This document shows positions 29,089 through 63,782 of a DNA stretch of 64,000 nucleotides, one piece after another. Below the pieces are notes generated by a model. It saw nothing but the letters and a program-made list of their open reading frames with translations, made no database searches and was not told the DNA's origin. The translations under genes and the position numbers were made by a program. Positions within the stretch are counted from its first letter, which is position 1; the number at the start of each line of letters is the position of its first letter. Source of the DNA: Balamuthia mandrillaris (taxonomy: Eukaryota; Discosea; Longamoebia; Balamuthiidae); the NCBI GenBank assembly GCA_031835245.1, contig JAVKOQ010000040.1, positions 208,501 to 272,500 of the forward strand, in the 5' to 3' direction.

Positions 29089-29609
29089 TTTAGGACATCA
29101 AAAATAAAAAAAAAGCGTCTGGTTCCCTCCTCCTCCGCCTCCTCCTCCTCCTCCTCTTCCTCCGCTATTCGGCTGCGCGCAAATGAAAGTTGACAAGCTT
29201 GACAGCGGACGGGCCGTCAAACATACATTTACAACTGGTCTTTCGCTTCTCCCCTTTCTTCTTCTTCTTCTTCTAGATCTCTGCGAAGGCCCCCTCCCTC
29301 TCTCTCGTTTGGTGTCCGTCTTTTATTTCTTCCTTGCCGTTATTGTTGTCGGGTGGGCAACTTTTGTCGGCAAGATCCTGTCGTGACGTCCTTAGAACAA
29401 GTAAAGAATGGACAGCAAAAAAGTTAGAGATGATGGGCAGGTAAGTGAAATTTCGTTTTTCTGTTTTATTTCCCGAATTACAACACGACCCCTGTGGGTT
29501 CCTTCGGAGTTTTCACGGTCCGTGACACCAAATGCTTGGTTGTCGGGGCCGTGTGGAAACTATTTAAGCGACCGCTCCGTTCTTTCCAGTCGTATCCCCC
29601 AGTCCCTAC
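29089..29609 (+). other. Spacer with a candidate first exon and element left flank
   Basis: CT-rich sequence at 29125-29165 and 29255-29305 is probably the minus-strand SPRY promoter. At 29408-29440 a short open segment beginning ATG ends in a strong splice donor (gggcag|gtaagtg). It may be exon 1 of the zinc-finger/KCTD gene downstream of the IS607 element. A TATA-like ctatttaag occurs at about 29560, 50 bases before the recombinase start. Confidence 0.35.
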
Positions 29610-30524
29610 ATGTCACAAACCACCACCATTGACGCTACCACTACCATTACCCCACGACTCAGAGAACCCACCGAAGATCTGCACTACGTCGCCCCCACGA
29701 AGCTGATCAAACGCTATGGCGTCTCCCTCAGCGGGCTGGCCAAGTGGCACACGGAGGGCAAGGTGGCGGCCCTCCGCACCCCAAGCGGGCACCGCCGCTA
29801 CGCGGCAGAGCACGTTAGAGAGCTTCTTGGCCTCCCCGCCGCGGTCCCAGAACCCGAGGCCACCGAAAAGATCAAGGCCATCTACTGTCGAGTCTCCAGT
29901 CACGGACAACGAGAGCACCTCAAGCATCAAGTTGAGCGTATGCGAGAAGCCTACCCGAGGCACAAGGTCTACAGCGACATCGGCTCGGGCATCAACTGGA
30001 AGCGCAAGGACTTTGTCGCCCTTCTGGAGCGAGTCCTTGCTGGACATGTCGAGGAGGTTGTGGTTGCCCACCGAGACCGCCTCTGTCGGATCGCCTATGA
30101 GCTCGTCGAGCACATCTTCCGTAGGTGCGGAACCCGTCTCCTGGTGCACCGTCCGGACGACGAGGACGACGACGAGGCCGAACCAAGCAACGTCCTCGCC
30201 GAGGACCTCCTCTCCCTCGTTACCGTCTTTGTCTGTAGACACCACGGTCAAAGACGATATACAGCTGGCCAAGGAGGCAGCTCGAGCACGTCAAAGAGGC
30301 CGAGGCAAACCGAAAAGGGCGACAGAGGAGGATCCAAACGACGACGAAGAGGAGGAGGAAGATCCGACGCTGTTCAAGACGAGAAAGATACGTCTGAGGC
30401 CCACCAAGAAACAAGCCCGGATCCTCAACCGCTGGTTCGGAGGGGCGAGGAAAGTCTGGAACACCACTCTTCGAGACTGCAAGACAACGGAGAAAGAAGA
30501 AGAGGAGGAAAAGAAGAGGAGTAG
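29610..30524 (+). CDS. tnpA: IS607-type serine recombinase (TnpA)
   Basis: Site-specific recombinase that moves the element. Residues about 28-76 form a MerR-like helix-turn-helix (LIKRYGVSLSGLAKW, TPSGHRRYAAEHV), as in IS607 TnpA, where the DNA-binding domain precedes the catalytic domain. The catalytic domain begins IYCRVSSHGQ, with the nucleophile most likely Ser96, and contains YSDIGSGINWKRKDF, VVAHRDRLCRIAYEL and LLSLVTVFVCRHHGQ. Family similarity ends near 30262; the following 87 codons to the stop at 30524 read through the Fanzor gene in another frame and are Arg/Gly-rich. All expected active-site arginines appear present, so the enzyme may be functional. Confidence 0.9.
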   Translation: MSQTTTIDATTTITPRLREPTEDLHYVAPTKLIKRYGVSLSGLAKWHTEGKVAALRTPSGHRRYAAEHVRELLGLPAAVPEPEATEKIKAIYCRVSSHGQREHLKHQVERMREAYPRHKVYSDIGSGINWKRKDFVALLERVLAGHVEEVVVAHRDRLCRIAYELVEHIFRRCGTRLLVHRPDDEDDDEAEPSNVLAEDLLSLVTVFVCRHHGQRRYTAGQGGSSSTSKRPRQTEKGDRGGSKRRRRGGGRSDAVQDEKDTSEAHQETSPDPQPLVRRGEESLEHHSSRLQDNGERRRGGKEEE

Positions 30525-31668
30525 AGTGGCGTGGAAGCTGAGTCGGATGCAGGGCGTCTGCGTGGTTAAACCTAGAATCATATTCGATTACTTGGAAGAC
30601 GTCCCCTACTCCATCAAGCACGAGGCGGTAAAGCAGCTCCACGGCAATTACCTCACCTGCTGGACGCTCAAGAAGCAGGGTCATATCCGACGCTTCTCCA
30701 TCAAGTACAAGCGCAAAAAGGACCACCGCACCGAGTCCATCAAGATCCTCGGACATTACGTCCACTGGTGGAAGGGCTTCGTCTACCCTGACGAGCTCCA
30801 TGTGAACAAGCGTTGGAAAGAAGCCAATGAAACCCGCAAGAGGACACCCAGACGACGGCGGTTGCCGAATCCCCACGTTAAGCACATAGACCCCATGTTC
30901 GACCCTGTAGCGTACGCTTTAGAAGGCCTGGAGTTGGACGACAAGGGCCGACTGAGACGAACCTGCACACTGCACAAGGACAAGCGTCAACATTTTTGGC
31001 TCTGCGTGCCGATCCCAATCCAACATCATGAACGGGCTCCTGATAACCAAGGGAGCATCGTGGCCTTGGATCCAGGGGTTCGCACCTTTCTGTGTGGATA
31101 TAGTCCTACCGAGAGAACGGTGAGGGAGTTTGGACGCAACGACTTTGGTCGCATCTGGCGCCTCGGAAAGCATGCCGACGCCCTGCAGTCCAAAATCGAC
31201 CGCTCCCCACCGAGCCGCCGCAAGAGAAAACTTCGCGCTCTGCTCAAACTGAGAAAGAGGGTCACCAACCTGGTCGATGACTTTCACCGCAAGACGGCCC
31301 TCTTCCTGTGCCGCCGCTACGACCACATCATCATCCCTCCCTTTGGTGTGAAGGGCATTACGGCCACCCGAGGGAGGCGACGGAGGAAGATCGGCAAAAA
31401 GACCGCCAGGATGCTCTATTCCTGGGGACATTACCGATTCCGCCAGTGGTTGCTGCACAAGGCGAGGGAATGGGGCACCAAGGTCTACATTCGTTCGGAG
31501 GCCTGGACCAGCAAGACTTGCACCTGGTGCCTCCATGTGACTCACGAACAGAAGCAACACAACCGGCGTGAGCGAATCTTCGAGTGCGGACGCAGGGACT
31601 GTGGGATACGACTGGATCGAGATATAAATGGAGCTCGCAACATACTCCTTAGGAGCCTCTGTTGTTAA
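29716..31668 (+). CDS. Fanzor (eukaryotic TnpB) RNA-guided nuclease
   Basis: TnpB-superfamily nuclease; Fanzors cut DNA guided by an RNA made from the element's 3' end. The frame is open for 650 codons from ATG 29716, but similarity starts near residue 219 (FKTRKIRLRPTKKQARIL); the first 170 codons overlap tnpA out of frame. RuvC-I: VALDPGVRTFL (about residue 448). The RuvC-II position reads HIIIPPFGVKG without the usual Glu, while a Glu lies in RSEAWTSKTCTWC (about 593), as in Fanzors with a relocated catalytic Glu. A four-cysteine zinc finger follows (CTWC, then FECGRRDCG), then RuvC-III DRDINGARN (about 634). All parts are intact. The true start is uncertain: 29716, about 30048, or a fusion with TnpA. 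Confidence 0.9.
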   Translation: MASPSAGWPSGTRRARWRPSAPQAGTAATRQSTLESFLASPPRSQNPRPPKRSRPSTVESPVTDNESTSSIKLSVCEKPTRGTRSTATSARASTGSARTLSPFWSESLLDMSRRLWLPTETASVGSPMSSSSTSSVGAEPVSWCTVRTTRTTTRPNQATSSPRTSSPSLPSLSVDTTVKDDIQLAKEAARARQRGRGKPKRATEEDPNDDEEEEEDPTLFKTRKIRLRPTKKQARILNRWFGGARKVWNTTLRDCKTTEKEEEEEKKRSRVAWKLSRMQGVCVVKPRIIFDYLEDVPYSIKHEAVKQLHGNYLTCWTLKKQGHIRRFSIKYKRKKDHRTESIKILGHYVHWWKGFVYPDELHVNKRWKEANETRKRTPRRRRLPNPHVKHIDPMFDPVAYALEGLELDDKGRLRRTCTLHKDKRQHFWLCVPIPIQHHERAPDNQGSIVALDPGVRTFLCGYSPTERTVREFGRNDFGRIWRLGKHADALQSKIDRSPPSRRKRKLRALLKLRKRVTNLVDDFHRKTALFLCRRYDHIIIPPFGVKGITATRGRRRRKIGKKTARMLYSWGHYRFRQWLLHKAREWGTKVYIRSEAWTSKTCTWCLHVTHEQKQHNRRERIFECGRRDCGIRLDRDINGARNILLRSLCC

Positions 31669-31713
31669 TCTCTTACTAATCCCTCCATTTATATCTCGAT
31701 CCAGTCGTATCCC
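31603..31713 (+). repeat. Perfect 31-bp inverted repeat at the Fanzor 3' end (candidate guide-RNA scaffold)
   Basis: 31603-31633 (gggatacgactgg...aaatggag) is an exact reverse complement of 31683-31713, with a 49-base loop. The left arm lies within the Fanzor coding sequence over the RuvC-III motif; the right arm is 14 bases beyond the stop codon at 31668. TnpB and Fanzor guide RNAs derive from this part of the element, so a transcript would fold into a long stem here. The RNA role is inference. Confidence 0.75.
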
Positions 31714-31784
31714 TTTTCCTTAAATTTTTTCTAGGAAAAAGGCCGGCTTTGGGGGAAACTTTGGAGTCCGCAAAAAGCAAGTTG

Positions 31785-32909
31785 ATGGACGCAGGCTCCA
31801 GCAGCGCAGCCGCGCACAGTGGCCCGTCGAATCACGTCCTCGTTAAAGTGGTTGGAGGACCCAAGAATGGCCGCGTGCGAGTGACCATTCTCGCCTGCCC
31901 GGAATGCGGTGCCAGCTTTGCCTCCAAATCCCTCCTTCTGGCGCACATGAAGCAACGTGGGCATGGGCTGCGCTGTGCTACCTGTGGTTGGGCTTTCCTC
32001 TCTCGTGGTGCGTGCAAGCAACACCAGAGAAAAAAGGGCCACGCCTCCTCCACTGCTGCCAACAGCAACGCAGCAGTGGCTCATAAGCCAGAAGAGGACA
32101 AAGAAGCAGCAGCCACGCGCCAATCCCTCTTGCAAAGGCAACAAGCGGCTTTATTATCGGACTTTGCGCAGAAGCTTTGGGGCTTGATGCAAGGACTTAG
32201 CCAAGAGAATATGAAAGCTGATAAAACGATGCTTGCACAGCTACGGGAACAGCAAACGAAGGCGCAGGAGAACCTCAAATCCTTGTGCGGTGCCATGGCC
32301 AGCGCTTCTAGCGAAGGCCAAAAAGCAGCACAGCGGCTGTGTGAAGAGCAACTGGCAGCTATTCGACAAGAACGGGAGGATTGGGAAAAAGAAAAACAAC
32401 ACATTAGCAACGTCAATGGTCTACAACCGAAAGTGGTAAAGGTTAATGTTGGAGGTGAAGTTCCTCTCTTCTCTTTCTTACTGTCTACTCTCCTTTCATC
32501 CCTCTTCTTTTTTCTTCTCTCGGCTTGTTTTGCTCTGTATTCATTTGTTGCATGTGCGTTTTCTCTTTCTTCCTTGTGTCTTAACTTTGTATCTCTTTCT
32601 TTCCATTTCTTCTTCTATTCACCAGGACACGTGTTCACGACCTCAAGCACAACAATGTGCATGTGCACAGGATCAATGCTGGAGGCCATGTTCTCGGGAA
32701 GGCATGCCCTAACGCCAATGGAGGACGGCTCCGTTTTTATCGACCGCGATCCCACTCACTTCAGAACAATCTTGAACTATTTGCGTGGTAACAAGCCGGT
32801 ACTTCCAGAAAACCAGACTGGCCTTGAAGAACTCCTTCAGGAATGTGAATTCTACGGGCTTGCTCCGCTTGCTTCGCTCGTTCGTAAGGCGCTGGAGAGT
32901 GTATCGTGA
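31785..32909 (+). CDS. C2H2 zinc-finger and BTB/T1 (KCTD-like) protein
   Basis: Two C2H2-type fingers near the N-terminus (CPECGASFASKSLLLAHMKQ and CATCGWAFLSRGACKQH) are followed by a long Gln/Glu/Lys coiled coil. A C-terminal BTB/T1 domain of the KCTD type follows: VNVGGHVFTTSS, GSMLEAMFSGRH, VFIDRDPTHFRTILNYLRG and FYGLAPLASLVRKAL. The domain is split by an intron at 32455-32625 that joins at a Gly codon. Such proteins often act as Cullin-3 adaptors; zinc fingers suggest nuclear or RNA-associated roles. ATG 31785 is the first in frame, but open sequence upstream after an acceptor-like ttttctag suggests an upstream exon, possibly beyond the IS607 element at 29.4 kb. Spacer 32910-33187 shows nothing further. 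Confidence 0.8.
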   Translation: MDAGSSSAAAHSGPSNHVLVKVVGGPKNGRVRVTILACPECGASFASKSLLLAHMKQRGHGLRCATCGWAFLSRGACKQHQRKKGHASSTAANSNAAVAHKPEEDKEAAATRQSLLQRQQAALLSDFAQKLWGLMQGLSQENMKADKTMLAQLREQQTKAQENLKSLCGAMASASSEGQKAAQRLCEEQLAAIRQEREDWEKEKQHISNVNGLQPKVVKVNVGGEVPLFSFLLSTLLSSLFFFLLSACFALYSFVACAFSLSSLCLNFVSLSFHFFFYSPGHVFTTSSTTMCMCTGSMLEAMFSGRHALTPMEDGSVFIDRDPTHFRTILNYLRGNKPVLPENQTGLEELLQECEFYGLAPLASLVRKALESVS

Positions 32910-59945: not shown

Positions 59946-62900
59946 TTAAGAAGAAGTGGAAGGTGAAGAAGATTGTTTGAGGAGATCCCAATAACGTTTG
60001 ACGAGTTTGGGAGCATGAACATCTTTAGCAGGGATCCATTGGTTGTCAGAATGTGGGTAGCCTTTCCAGTGAACAAAGTATTCACGCTTATTGGCTGGGC
60101 CTTTGTGATCAAGGATTTCATCTATTTCGTACTCATCTGGCAGGAGTTCATTAGTAGTCGAGTCCTCTGGGGGGGCAACGAGCTTCAGCTGGTTGGGGCT
60201 GAATTTGTCTGGGAGGGTAACACTGGTGCTGTCCTGGAGGAGATATGCACCACCACGATTGCGGCGGATAACTGTGTAGGGGCCAGAGTACTCAGGAAGA
60301 GACTTGGGAGACCTGGGAGGCTTGCGTAGCATGACTTTGGAACCAGTGGAAAATTCGCGGAGTGGCTTAGAGGAATCATGTTGAGCCTTGATGTTGGAGC
60401 TGTGCTTCCGGGTAGAAGATGCTGATGCCGGGTAGACAATATCATGCATTTGCTTGGCATTCTCCAAGAGGAGAGTTTCGGTAGGAAGCTGGGAGGAGGA
60501 AGAAGAATAGTCTTGTGGAGTGGTAGCTGGGCGACCAAAGAACAGTTGGAAAGGGGAAGACTTGTGACGATGGGTGACGCGTTGGTTGATTGCGTATTGG
60601 GCAGCAGGAAGAAAGGTGTGCCAGTGAGACCAATCACTGTTAATGAGCTTGTTAAGGGTGTTGCGGGCCAGCTTGACATGGCTTTCTGCAGCTCCGTTGG
60701 CTCGAGGATGATAGGCCAAGATGAACCGGTGCTCAAAGCCAGAGAGTGTCTTGAGAGCTTTGATGATCGCGTTGACGAACTCAGTGCCGTTGTCTGACTG
60801 AAGGATCTTAGGGAGACCGAAATCAGAGACGACTTGATACAGGGTGCGGGCCACGTCTTTAGCAGTCTTGGCGTGGATTGGGCGGAGGGAAGTGGAACCG
60901 GGTAGCGATGTCTGTGGTGACCAGAACGTAGTTGAAGCCTTTGGAAGAAGTGGGAAGTGGGCCAAACAGATCGATGGCGACGTGATCGAAGGGGTAAGTG
61001 GCGTGGATGGTTTTGAGGGAATGAAAGCCGTGTTTGGTGACGTTGTGCTTAAGGCAGTCATTGCATTGTAGGCAAGTGCGGGAACAGTCAGCACGAAGAG
61101 TAGGCCAGTAATAGCCTTCATTCCAGATCTTGACGAACAAGGTTTCTGCTCCGTGATGTCCTTCTGTGTGGAACAGCTGCAGGAGGCGTTTCCGTTCGGA
61201 GGTGGAAGGGAGTTGTTTGCTGAGTCTGCCCTTGATGTGCCTGTTAAGAGCGGATTTGGCTGTGGATGGGGAGTTGTCAACCAAGGCGAGAGCCTTGAGG
61301 TCGCGGGGTTTGCGCTGAGCCAAGCGAGGGGCGTCAAGAGGGATGGAGGGAGGTGTAAGACCACCGTTGTCCCAGAAGGAGCGCGGGTACAGCCGAGAGA
61401 GACAGTCCTCGAGGATCATGTGAACGCCAGGGCGGTGGACGATCTCGAAGTTGTACTCGGAGATGAGGAGAGCCCAATAGTTGAGGGTGTAGTTTTTACT
61501 GTTAGAAGTGAAGAGGTAGGACAAAGCCTTGTGATCAGAAAAGATCGTGAACTTGTTGCCATAGAGCCAATCGCTGAAGGAGCGGACGGCGAAGAGGATG
61601 GCGAGCATCTCTCGTTTGGTGGCAGGATAGTTGCGTTGGGCAGGGTTGAGAGCCTTGCTCGCGAACGCGATGTACTGGTGTTTGTTGTTGGGTCCGATCT
61701 GGTAAAGGACAGCGCCAACACCGAATTGGGAGGCATCGGTGCCAACCAAAAGAGGTAAGGATGGGTCATAGAGTGAGAGCACAGGTGGGTTGGATAAGAT
61801 GCGCTTGAGGGCGTCAAAGGCGTCCTGGCAATCTTGGTTCCAATGGGGATGGACATCCTTGATGTACCGGAGGGCGTCAAGGGGCCGAACGAGTTGGGCG
61901 AACATGGGAATGAAGTCGCGAAGGTAGCCTGCAAAGCCAAGGAAGGATTGCATTTGTTTGCCGGTGGAAGGTACTTCGAGAAGTGCGAAGGTGGAGAGCT
62001 TGCGTTGGTCGGGAAGATAAGGTCGAGGACGGAGGCGATGAAAAAGCCTTGCACTTTGGAGATGATGCTGCGGATAGTAGGGATTGGGTATGTGAGGTCC
62101 AAAAGGAGCTTGTTCAGAAGGCGCGGATCGATGCAGACACGCCACTGGGTGACGTTGCCGTCAGCGTCCTTCTTGGGTACGACGGTGAGAGGAGAGTTCC
62201 AGGGACTGTCGGGTGGGGCGAGCACGATGACGCCGGTACGCAGCCATTCCGCCACTTGCAGATCGATAACGAGCATTAAATGGTGTGGGATGGGGTATTG
62301 GTGGCGAAAGACAGGAGGGTGGTCTCCAGTGTCCAGATGGAGAACCGCTTCGGGGAGGGTACAGGAAGGTCCTGTCGGTAGAGCCTCATTCTCCTGGAGG
62401 TATTTCTCGATGGCTTCGAGAATACGCTTGCGGATGTGTTCCTTGACAGCTTTCACCAAACGTTGATGTTGGCGTCGGGTGATGTCGTGGTCCTTGGAGC
62501 GAGGTAGTGGTTCCTCAGGGTAGTCGATTGGGATGTCTGTAATGCCCATGCCGGACTTGCGCATGAAGTCGCGGCCCAGGATGATCGATTGACCATCTGG
62601 TTGAGGCAACACGGAGAACATGTGATGGAAACAGCATTCGCCGAAGCCAATAGCGAGTGGCTCCGTTTCGGCGGCACATGTAGCGGTGGTTTCACGGTGT
62701 CCGAGTTTGACCATGTAGTTGGCTTGCTTGGTTTTGGCACGAACTAAGTCAACAATGGAAGGGTCCATAAAGGAGTGGCTGGCGCCAGAATCTATGACAG
62801 CGGTGACTCGACGGCCGTTGATGGTCATCGGGGCACAGATAGGGTCGTTGGGTCCAGGCATATCGTCAGTGACGGTGATAGAGTTGAGAGCCCGTTGTGA

Positions 62901-63782
62901 CTCATAGAACTCGTCGTACTCCTCTTCATCTCCGATAGAGTCTTGCTGCTCAGCGGCAGGAGCGGGTGTGTTGCTCTGTTGTTGCGTAGAAGACATGGAG
63001 TTGAGGGAACGTGAGCTGGGAGAGGACTGGCGTGCTGGTAGTTGCGCGCGTGTTTGTTGCGGCAGTGTTGACGTGGGGTTGCGTGTTGTGGGAGCAGAAG
63101 ATAAGGCTGGTGTAGCAGACGTAGCTGGAGAAGACTGCCGTTGTAGCTTGCGGGCCTTTTTTTGGCACTGATCTTCCGTGTGGTTGCGTGTTTTGCAGTG
63201 TGCGCAAACAGCACCGATAGTGTGGGGTAACTGTGATTGCCTTTGAGGTGATTTGCTGTGACCTTTATCTTTCGAAGAAGGTTGTGGAAACTCTGCTTCT
63301 ATGAGGACTGCGAGCTCGAAAGCAGCGATGACGTCTTGTGGCTTGTTGCGAAGAGTCTGTTGCTTGTACTTCGACTTGATGTGGGGAAGAAGGGCTCGTC
63401 CAAAGAAGAAGGCTTTGAGGTAGTCGTAGAAGGTGTCAGGAAGACAATTACAGAGTACAGAATACCGATCGATGAGTTGATGAACGCTTTCGCCAGGCTT
63501 CTGTCGAAACGACGTGACGGCCTCAATCGTTGTGGCCTCGATGTCTGGAAGGCGGTAGTGCCGATGGAAGAGGTCTCGGGCGACGTTCCATGGTTGGTCT
63601 CGTAGAGCGCTAATGGCCCAAAGACGTCCGTCTCCAACAAGGGTGGTGATGAGGGCTTGCGTCCATCTATCCTCAGGGTAGTTGTAGGCGTTGAGGTGAT
63701 ACTCCAGTTCCATGGTGTGAAGAGCGGGGTCCTGGCGCTTGCTGATGTCGAACTTAGGTAGTCCGGGGGGAAGGCGAGGCAT
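59946..63782 (-). pseudogene. Defective gag-pol polyprotein
   Basis: Gag begins at ATG 63782 and includes a retrotransposon-gag region (LEYHLNAYNYPEDRWTQALI) and zinc knuckle CAHCKTRNHTEDQC. Protease: VIDSGASHSFMD. Reverse transcriptase starts normally (VVPKKDADG, YPIPTIRS), but about 62050 it jumps to the thumb/connection region (SFLGFAGYLRDFIP): the palm with YxDD is missing, and the frame shifts. RNase H (VGTDASQFGVGAVLY, AILFAVRSFSDWLYG) and the integrase zinc region (FHTEGHHGAETL, CLQCNDC) are readable. A second shift near 60890 separates the first integrase Asp (AIDLFGPL) from the second (QSDNGTEF) and Glu (AAESHVK). The chromodomain near the end reads YFVHWKGYPHSDNQWIPA. Antisense open frames over this region are shadows. 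Confidence 0.9.

Follow-up and report, generated by a model that had tools for sequence, protein, structure and literature searches.

We analysed a 64,000-nucleotide stretch of the Balamuthia mandrillaris genome (assembly GCA_031835245.1, contig JAVKOQ010000040.1, positions 208,501 to 272,500 of the forward strand; hereafter the window), in which two overlapping open reading frames (ORFs) encode an IS607-type serine recombinase and a Fanzor2-type RNA-guided nuclease. Comparison with related loci in the same genome placed both in an element whose left end coincides with a predicted 5' splice site. The central features of the locus are the following; here and below, C-numbers denote contigs of the genome assembly (64.8 Mb, 775 contigs) and L-numbers the loci taken for comparison.

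29437..29440, plus strand: RCAG target in the host exon, present here as GCAG, adjoining the predicted 5' splice site GTAAGT of the element at 29441
29441..31664, plus strand: copy of the IS607-Fanzor element, very probably an introner, with the left end intact and the right 147 nucleotides (nt) missing, from alignment with the copies in C73, C11, C718 and C598
29610..30524, plus strand: ORF1, IS607-type serine recombinase of 304 amino acids (aa), with a MerR-like helix-turn-helix (HTH) and a resolvase domain, Ser96
29716..31668, plus strand: ORF2, Fanzor2-type RNA-guided nuclease of 650 aa from the first ATG, with the nuclease part from about 30376, overlapping the recombinase in another frame

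The recombinase and the Fanzor nuclease

ORF1 matched the Pfam Resolvase model with an e-value of 4.7e-16, while its MerR match fell below the Pfam cut-off. The catalytic Ser96 sits in the sequence YCRVSSHGQ, and the matches in the PDB are the IS607-family catalytic domains of the ISC1904, ISC1926 and IS1535 proteins. ORF2 matched the Pfam models HTH_OrfB_IS605 and Cas12f1-like_TNB, with OrfB_IS605 below its cut-off, and its two nearest proteins are NCBI entries named 'Transposase [Balamuthia mandrillaris]'. The catalytic residues were checked in an alignment of 13 Fanzor and TnpB proteins, using the residue definition of Fanzor2 given in PMC10711439. Its invariant columns comprise D281-P282-G283, E424 (the relocated glutamate, Ealt), C431/C434/C453/C458 (the C4 zinc finger) and D465 (the RuvC-III aspartate), and the window Fanzor retains the invariant residue throughout: the aspartate at 31069-31071 (in DPG), the glutamate at 31498-31500 (in RSEAWTSKTC), the four cysteines and the aspartate at 31621-31623. 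An initial annotation, made from the letters of the DNA, had recognised an IS607-type recombinase with its catalytic serine and a Fanzor with both RuvC-I and RuvC-III aspartates, a four-cysteine zinc finger and the relocated glutamate, and the Resolvase match, Ser96 and the alignment bear this out, no catalytic residue being missing. Structure prediction had been recommended as well; the AlphaFold model of the Fanzor is poor (mean predicted local distance difference test score, pLDDT, 61.5) and was used solely for a fold look-up, which retrieved the protein that is also the best solved-structure match by sequence, the mimivirus Fanzor2 9b0l (e-values of 6e-17 for the fold and 3.8e-26 for the sequence). 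Bacterial contamination, which the annotation had named as a possible objection, is ruled out by the 64.8-Mb genome, by the intron-bearing genes that neighbour the locus and by the many genomic copies, including those in protein-coding genes; its placement in a eukaryotic chromosome therefore holds.

A search of the genome with window positions 29560-31760 as the query gave 70 matches. Identity to the window is 98.9-99.6% for the copies in C73, C11 and C718 and 85% for that in C598. In all 11 other loci compared, the homology with the window ends at 31664, and full copies extend 147 nt beyond it to a common terminus, CCATCAG (..TTTTTAATCCATCAG). As the left end of the family corresponds to window position 29441 (GTAAGT), the window copy therefore comprises 2224 of 2371 nt, having lost the right end, the last residues of the Fanzor and a conserved right-end region; the stop codon of ORF2 lies outside the element, and the copies in C73, C11 and C718 encode 11 further residues. 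The locus had originally been annotated as a complete transposon bordered by 29585 and 31713. Of this, an IS607-Fanzor element with intact-looking proteins in a eukaryote stands, whereas the completeness does not, because the right end is missing, and the proposed borders turn out to be set by a 14-nt direct repeat, of which they are the outer ends. The intact look of both proteins and the presence of that repeat at both borders could suggest an ordinary IS607-Fanzor transposon that happens to lie in an intron. However, the homology with other copies runs from 29441 to 31664, five aligned copies have the left member of the repeat within the element, and its right member belongs to an inverted copy specific to this locus; the comparison of copies refutes such an origin, which we regard as extremely unlikely.

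Predicted splice sites at the element ends and a probable intron family

The initial annotation overlooked that the element ends in predicted splice sites and that its copies lie as probable introns inside genes. Copies with both ends were sought by a scan that required GTRAG and a final AG, not RC before AG, and two copies starting with GTAGGT were added by hand. The resulting 28 copies range from 79 to 2371 nt, with three near full length (C598, C11 and C73:134193). The left flank is RCAG followed by GTRRGT in 28 of 28, and the right end is TCAG in all of them, in the form ATCAG in 27 and GTCAG in C1. Not all of these copies are independent, as those in C442 and at C73:58778 lie in copies of one gene, and C442 was dropped from the target statistics below. 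A rescan that used element bases 7-34 without a splice-site anchor returned 52 rows, of which 32 were by eye family left ends and the remainder T-rich chance matches or second hits; RCAG|GT was present at 29 of these 32 left ends. This rescan also added three both-ended copies, starting with GTAGGT (C73:122416), GTACGT (C25:323953) and GTATGT (C318, just left of 56538). When up to 3 mismatches are allowed, the genome contains 94 occurrences of the right terminus, of which 46 are exact and some are allelic duplicates; the reversed pattern does not occur at all. As queries, the right 145 nt found at least 40 places (40 of 89 candidates scored) and the left 121 nt found 27. Thus, near-identical intron-like copies occupy many unrelated gene positions, as is typical of introners. 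We conclude that the window very probably contains a right-truncated member of an autonomous introner family, namely an IS607-type transposon with a serine recombinase and a Fanzor2 that starts with a strong 5' splice site, GTAAGT, and ends with a 3' splice site, ..TTTTAATCCATCAG.

In C718 (L033, around 6711 and 9086) one copy is nested in the Fanzor ORF of another, with its RCAG|GTAAGT junction lost and its right CATCAG kept. We also considered carriage of the same family by viruses and rejected it: the terminus pattern has no exact match in the viral contigs, and the 36 viral relatives are only 27-44% identical. For the 6 prokaryotic matches to the 20-letter terminus, the flanks were by eye alike in none.

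Empty sites and target preference

The 45+45 nt flanks of 12 copies were joined and queried against the genome. For 9 of the 12 an unfilled copy of the same site was found exactly at the junction, and the 11 longer alignments obtained for these nine copies (379-406 columns, 92-99% identity) are free of gaps at the junction, so the unit gained or lost is GTAAGT...CATCAG. A tenth site, C73:155463, is empty on C318, where a family copy of its own lies 13 nt downstream; these two copies (L069 and L072), whose target sites are separated by 13 nt and belong to duplicate copies of a gene, are probably independent insertions. The search for other copies and empty sites that had been recommended with the initial annotation was therefore productive, with the pattern expected of insertions that create introns seen cleanly for nine copies and, with a neighbouring copy close by, for the tenth. 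These alignments also bear on whether the family consists of ordinary old host introns, with splice sites of the host, that were later entered by an IS607-Fanzor element. The genes are rich in introns, and the window copy, which ends at a 3' splice-like site foreign to the family, could, taken by itself, be read in this way. Against this, the exon bases join directly in 11 of 11 empty-site alignments, which refutes it for those nine copies, and in copies from unrelated genes the repeated sequence includes the splice sites. Hence, we consider a host origin of the introns very improbable.

With the CAGs in the same flanks as the background, the target shows a purine at position -4 in 27 of 27 copies (background 55/99, p 1e-7) and A or T at position +2 in 24 of 27 (background 48/99, p 1e-5). 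The sole bases shared in the comparison of empty and filled sites are CAG; there is no target-site duplication (TSD), and no terminal inverted repeat (TIR) of 15 nt or more was found in three full copies. An identical short core at both ends in the absence of TIRs and TSDs is a feature of IS607 elements, which recombine between matching dinucleotides (PMC10711439). The GG crossover dinucleotide of ISXfa1 and the bacterial IStrons is not seen; the shared bases being CAG, the core would be CA or AG. Borders that equal splice sites are also what would be predicted if the family spread at the RNA level, with the excised intron reverse-splicing into messenger RNA followed by reverse transcription and the transposon genes travelling as passengers. 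However, the target preference exceeds the splice context (W at +2, R at -4). The encoded recombinase is of a family whose members move by crossing over at short cores of identical sequence (PMC10711439), and both ends of the element carry CAG. In addition, some right termini are found where the flanking DNA looks non-coding, and one copy is nested in the ORF of another. We therefore judge spread through RNA to be unlikely.

Conserved proteins read across the joined flanks

Joined-flank peptides were translated and compared for 23 copies, a set that excludes C1, C25:321534, C51:19044 and C125. Homology spans the junction in 10 of the 23. These are adenylosuccinate lyase (ADSL) on C377, DNMT2 on C326 with its conserved LGN|SLN motif, PRP18, phosphomannomutase on C598, a gamma-tubulin complex protein, RICTOR at two sites, BCCIP, the anticodon-binding domain HGTP_anticodon2 and a kinase match that is below the cut-off. 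A methylcrotonyl-CoA carboxylase match (C13:130717, e-value 0.0023, below the cut-off) also crosses the junction and was left out of the ten. The RICTOR gene on C73 (L031, 4099-4542 and 5193-7564) contains a full-length and an internally deleted copy about 650 nt apart, and both sites are empty on C318.

Selection on the proteins and a structured right end

Between the window and C598, the 375 codons of the Fanzor after the overlap have a synonymous divergence (dS) of 0.61 and a nonsynonymous divergence (dN) of 0.07, a ratio of 0.11; the Fanzor protein is under purifying selection. For the 188 recombinase codons compared between the same copies, dS is 0.11 and dN/dS 0.48.

The last 150 nt of the element fold at -53.5 kcal/mol (z -2.72), a value reached by 2 of 200 shuffles, and small copies retain the right end. 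A hairpin, GTGRG-TTTA-CTCAC, is common to the aligned right ends (36 rows, one locus appearing twice), with 23 nt between it and the 3' end. Since the hairpin varies mainly by G/A opposite U, the covariation is weak.

Probable overprinting of the Fanzor N-terminus on the recombinase gene

The region in which the two ORFs overlap contains a further feature:

30016..30072, plus strand: Fanzor N-terminal motif SPFWSESLLDMSRRLWLPT, in the Fanzor frame, over recombinase codons including VVVAHRDRLCR (30057-30089)

A scan of 40 loci, in which search patterns recognised 10 distinct recombinase-Fanzor loci, showed that the Fanzor frame is free of stops over the recombinase domain in 10 of 10, with a constant frame offset. 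The stop-free stretch is 115 codons in most loci, 102 in L106 and 111 in L120. Synonymous shuffles of the recombinase codons lacked a stop in 3 to 1019 of 2000 per locus; with 1019 for the window and 991 for C598, these two alone say little, and it is the viral loci that carry the case. The FW of the motif begins 53 nt ahead of the recombinase DRL codon in the window and likewise in 4 viral loci (pattern matches among 18 rows). An N-terminal PFW...P motif is also present in a second Fanzor family of Balamuthia (QPFWNQFSSLIGRRLIRPE), for which a recombinase ORF of 150 aa was not observed, and in proteins such as P0020 of Lipomyces. These patterns suggest that in the amoebal and viral IS607-Fanzor2 elements the recombinase gene is probably overprinted with the Fanzor N-terminus (PFW..LWLPT..WF) (window 29716-30524; L099, L102, L105, L106, L108 and L118-L120). 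The low dS of the recombinase fits such a double constraint, and recombination between copies could explain it too. An automatic NCBI gene model (P0003) makes the recombinase and the Fanzor one protein of 672 aa by predicting an internal intron, at the cost of the last part of the recombinase domain.

A tentative model of a self-contained intron maker

The family has borders like those of introns, RCAG|NW as its common target, empty sites, read-through of conserved proteins and a conserved Fanzor. From these features a mechanism can be proposed. The recombinase would join a circular copy to an exonic RCAG by crossover within the shared CAG, giving a precursor RNA of the form exon-RCAG|GTAAGT...CATCAG|exon, from which the spliceosome would remove the element and restore the old message. 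The structured right end may act as the scaffold of the Fanzor guide RNA, in which case the first bases of the downstream exon would be the guide. An empty allele, presenting RCAG as the target-adjacent motif (TAM) followed by the target, could then be cut and repaired from the filled allele, so that the element would behave as an RNA-guided homing intron. Known Fanzor TAMs include TAG and CCG (PMC10432273). As the right-end RNA overlaps the 3' splice site, splicing and guide-RNA production would compete. A competition of this kind is known from the bacterial IStrons. The full scheme is one of recombinase insertion at exonic RCAG, silencing through splice sites, retargeting of the Fanzor by each new intron (guide from the downstream exon, TAM RCAG) to convert the empty allele, competition between splicing and guide RNA, and a Fanzor N-terminus overprinted in both amoeba and giant-virus elements; we put it forward tentatively, as a conjunction of parts that has a little less than an even chance of holding as a whole.

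Several points weigh against the interpretation of the family as autonomous introners. Splicing, guide-RNA production and DNA cutting are predictions from sequence, and precise excision is indistinguishable from insertion in a comparison of empty and filled sites. No empty site was found in the genome for the copies in C7 and C11, and position -4 is T in one empty allele (C318:37407). The IS607 elements of the cited papers use GG, where this family has CAG, though GG is typical there and not established as universal. RCAG|GT is lacking at 3 of the 32 left ends of the anchor-free rescan (C145, C770 and the nested C718 copy), and some copies that consist of a right end only lie in flanks that look non-coding by eye. 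Among the joined peptides, 13 of 23 gave no clear counted match across the junction (12 besides methylcrotonyl-CoA carboxylase), 4 of the 28 copies fall outside that comparison, and the PRP18 match has just about 5 residues on one side. The dN/dS of the recombinase is just mildly below 1. Finally, the window copy itself has lost its right end, and splicing at 31734 would put the downstream BTB ORF, whose own in-frame ATG is at 31785, in a different frame from the ATG at 29408.

The broken right end and the host gene of the window copy

The remaining features of the locus concern the ends of the element and the gene downstream:

29585..29607, plus strand: left arm of a 23-nt inverted repeat whose other arm is 31594-31616; the copies in C73 and C11 have the repeat in perfect form, that in C598 in a 17-nt form
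31603..31633, plus strand: arm 1 of a perfect inverted repeat of 31 nt found where the right end is broken, within the Fanzor ORF
31683..31713, plus strand: arm 2, an inverted copy of 31603-31633 outside the element homology, present at this locus only among the matches found
31715..31734, plus strand: predicted replacement 3' splice-like site TTTCCTTAAATTTTTTCTAG, from sequence inspection
31735..32909, plus strand: downstream host gene with C2H2 zinc finger and BTB_2 domains and an inner intron, from Pfam on the ORF 31749-32909

After 31664 the window copy carries 18 nt, then 31 nt that repeat its own 3' end perfectly in inverted orientation and then another 3' splice-like site. The inverted copy looks like a scar of templated repair or end joining. 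The host sequence has an ATG at 29408 followed by ..GGGCAG|GTAAGT, and joining this exon to CTAG at 31734 gives a stop ahead of the BTB frame; therefore, the second exon may be where the host gene begins, or the gene may be damaged. The locus is present on both C39 and C43 at equal coordinates with 100% identity, a duplicated or allelic assembly that was counted once, and no empty allele of the window copy was found in the genome, C39 and C43 being identical there. The 23-nt inverted repeat links the 5' leader with the 3' end of the Fanzor coding region, its arms lying 1986 nt apart, and could draw both ends of the long intron together in the RNA.

Relationship to known systems

Bacterial IStrons unite IS607 genes with a group I intron (PMC4227781). 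As in the group B IStrons (PMC4227781), an IS607-type recombinase and a nuclease of the TnpB superfamily lie in an element that is removed from the host RNA, a removal that is predicted for the Balamuthia family. It differs in its spliceosomal splice-site ends, its eukaryotic host and a target of RCAG instead of GG. Rfam gave no match at all at the gathering threshold, and hence no group I intron, in L031 (full and small copy) or the window; the family is therefore IStron-like yet not a member of that class. Like the introners of PMC9860276, it is a multi-copy intron family in genes that carries both splice sites and would leave the message length unchanged. In contrast, the text of PMC9860276 describes nonautonomous transposons, some with TSDs or TIRs, whereas here the parent is an autonomous element with IS607 and Fanzor genes and no TIR or TSD was seen. 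Neither 'Balamuthia' nor 'recombinase' occurs in the main text of that paper, the supplementary species tables of which may list Balamuthia. The Fanzor2 IS607-like elements ACa-1, ACa-2 and ISvMimi (PMC3627910) likewise combine a recombinase and a Fanzor2 in the absence of TIRs and TSDs. Their difference lies in the ends, which in Balamuthia are predicted splice sites; the word 'intron' does not occur in the main text of PMC3627910, nor in that of PMC10432273 (Saito 2023). No published account of an IS607-Fanzor introner was found in the literature searched, a body outside which most subscription papers and supplements lie.

Homing group I introns encode endonucleases. The model proposed above resembles their homing in that the empty allele would be cut and copied from the filled one, and differs in the use of an RNA-guided nuclease rather than a sequence-specific protein and in spliceosomal removal. 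To our knowledge, few of the autonomous drivers of introners have been identified, and the reason why TnpB and Fanzor nucleases ride on transposons is debated. The present family offers a DNA-level mechanism for the gain of seamless spliceosomal introns, and copies that are intact, copies with internal deletions and empty alleles all occur within a single genome. It would be a eukaryotic counterpart of the bacterial IStron; one strategy, in which a transposon is hidden as an intron and kept by means of an RNA-guided nuclease, seems to have emerged in connection with two splicing systems that are unrelated to each other. The family allows direct tests of how introns are gained, of homing by Fanzors and of the conflict of splicing with guide-RNA production.

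Other mobile elements in the genome and the window

Two further Fanzor families were encountered:

L094, 862-2616 (C1:481300-485300), also L095-L097 and L100: family 2, with a C2H2-type start in L094 and terminal repeats TAAGGCGGCG...
L098, 791-3234, and L099 (C57, C774): family 3, IS607-like recombinase and Fanzor, with the ends CCGTTG...GGCGA

Family 2 occurs at no fewer than about 50 places, at about 43% identity and with many open frames near 580 aa; no recombinase ORF was seen in its copy L094. Neither family is intron-like, as both have other ends in the loci examined (5 and 2, respectively), so intron ends are not general to the Fanzors of this genome. Elsewhere in the window, the minus strand of 59946-63782 carries an apparently broken Ty3/gypsy-like retrotransposon, whose chromodomain, integrase and aspartic protease parts occupy two frames.

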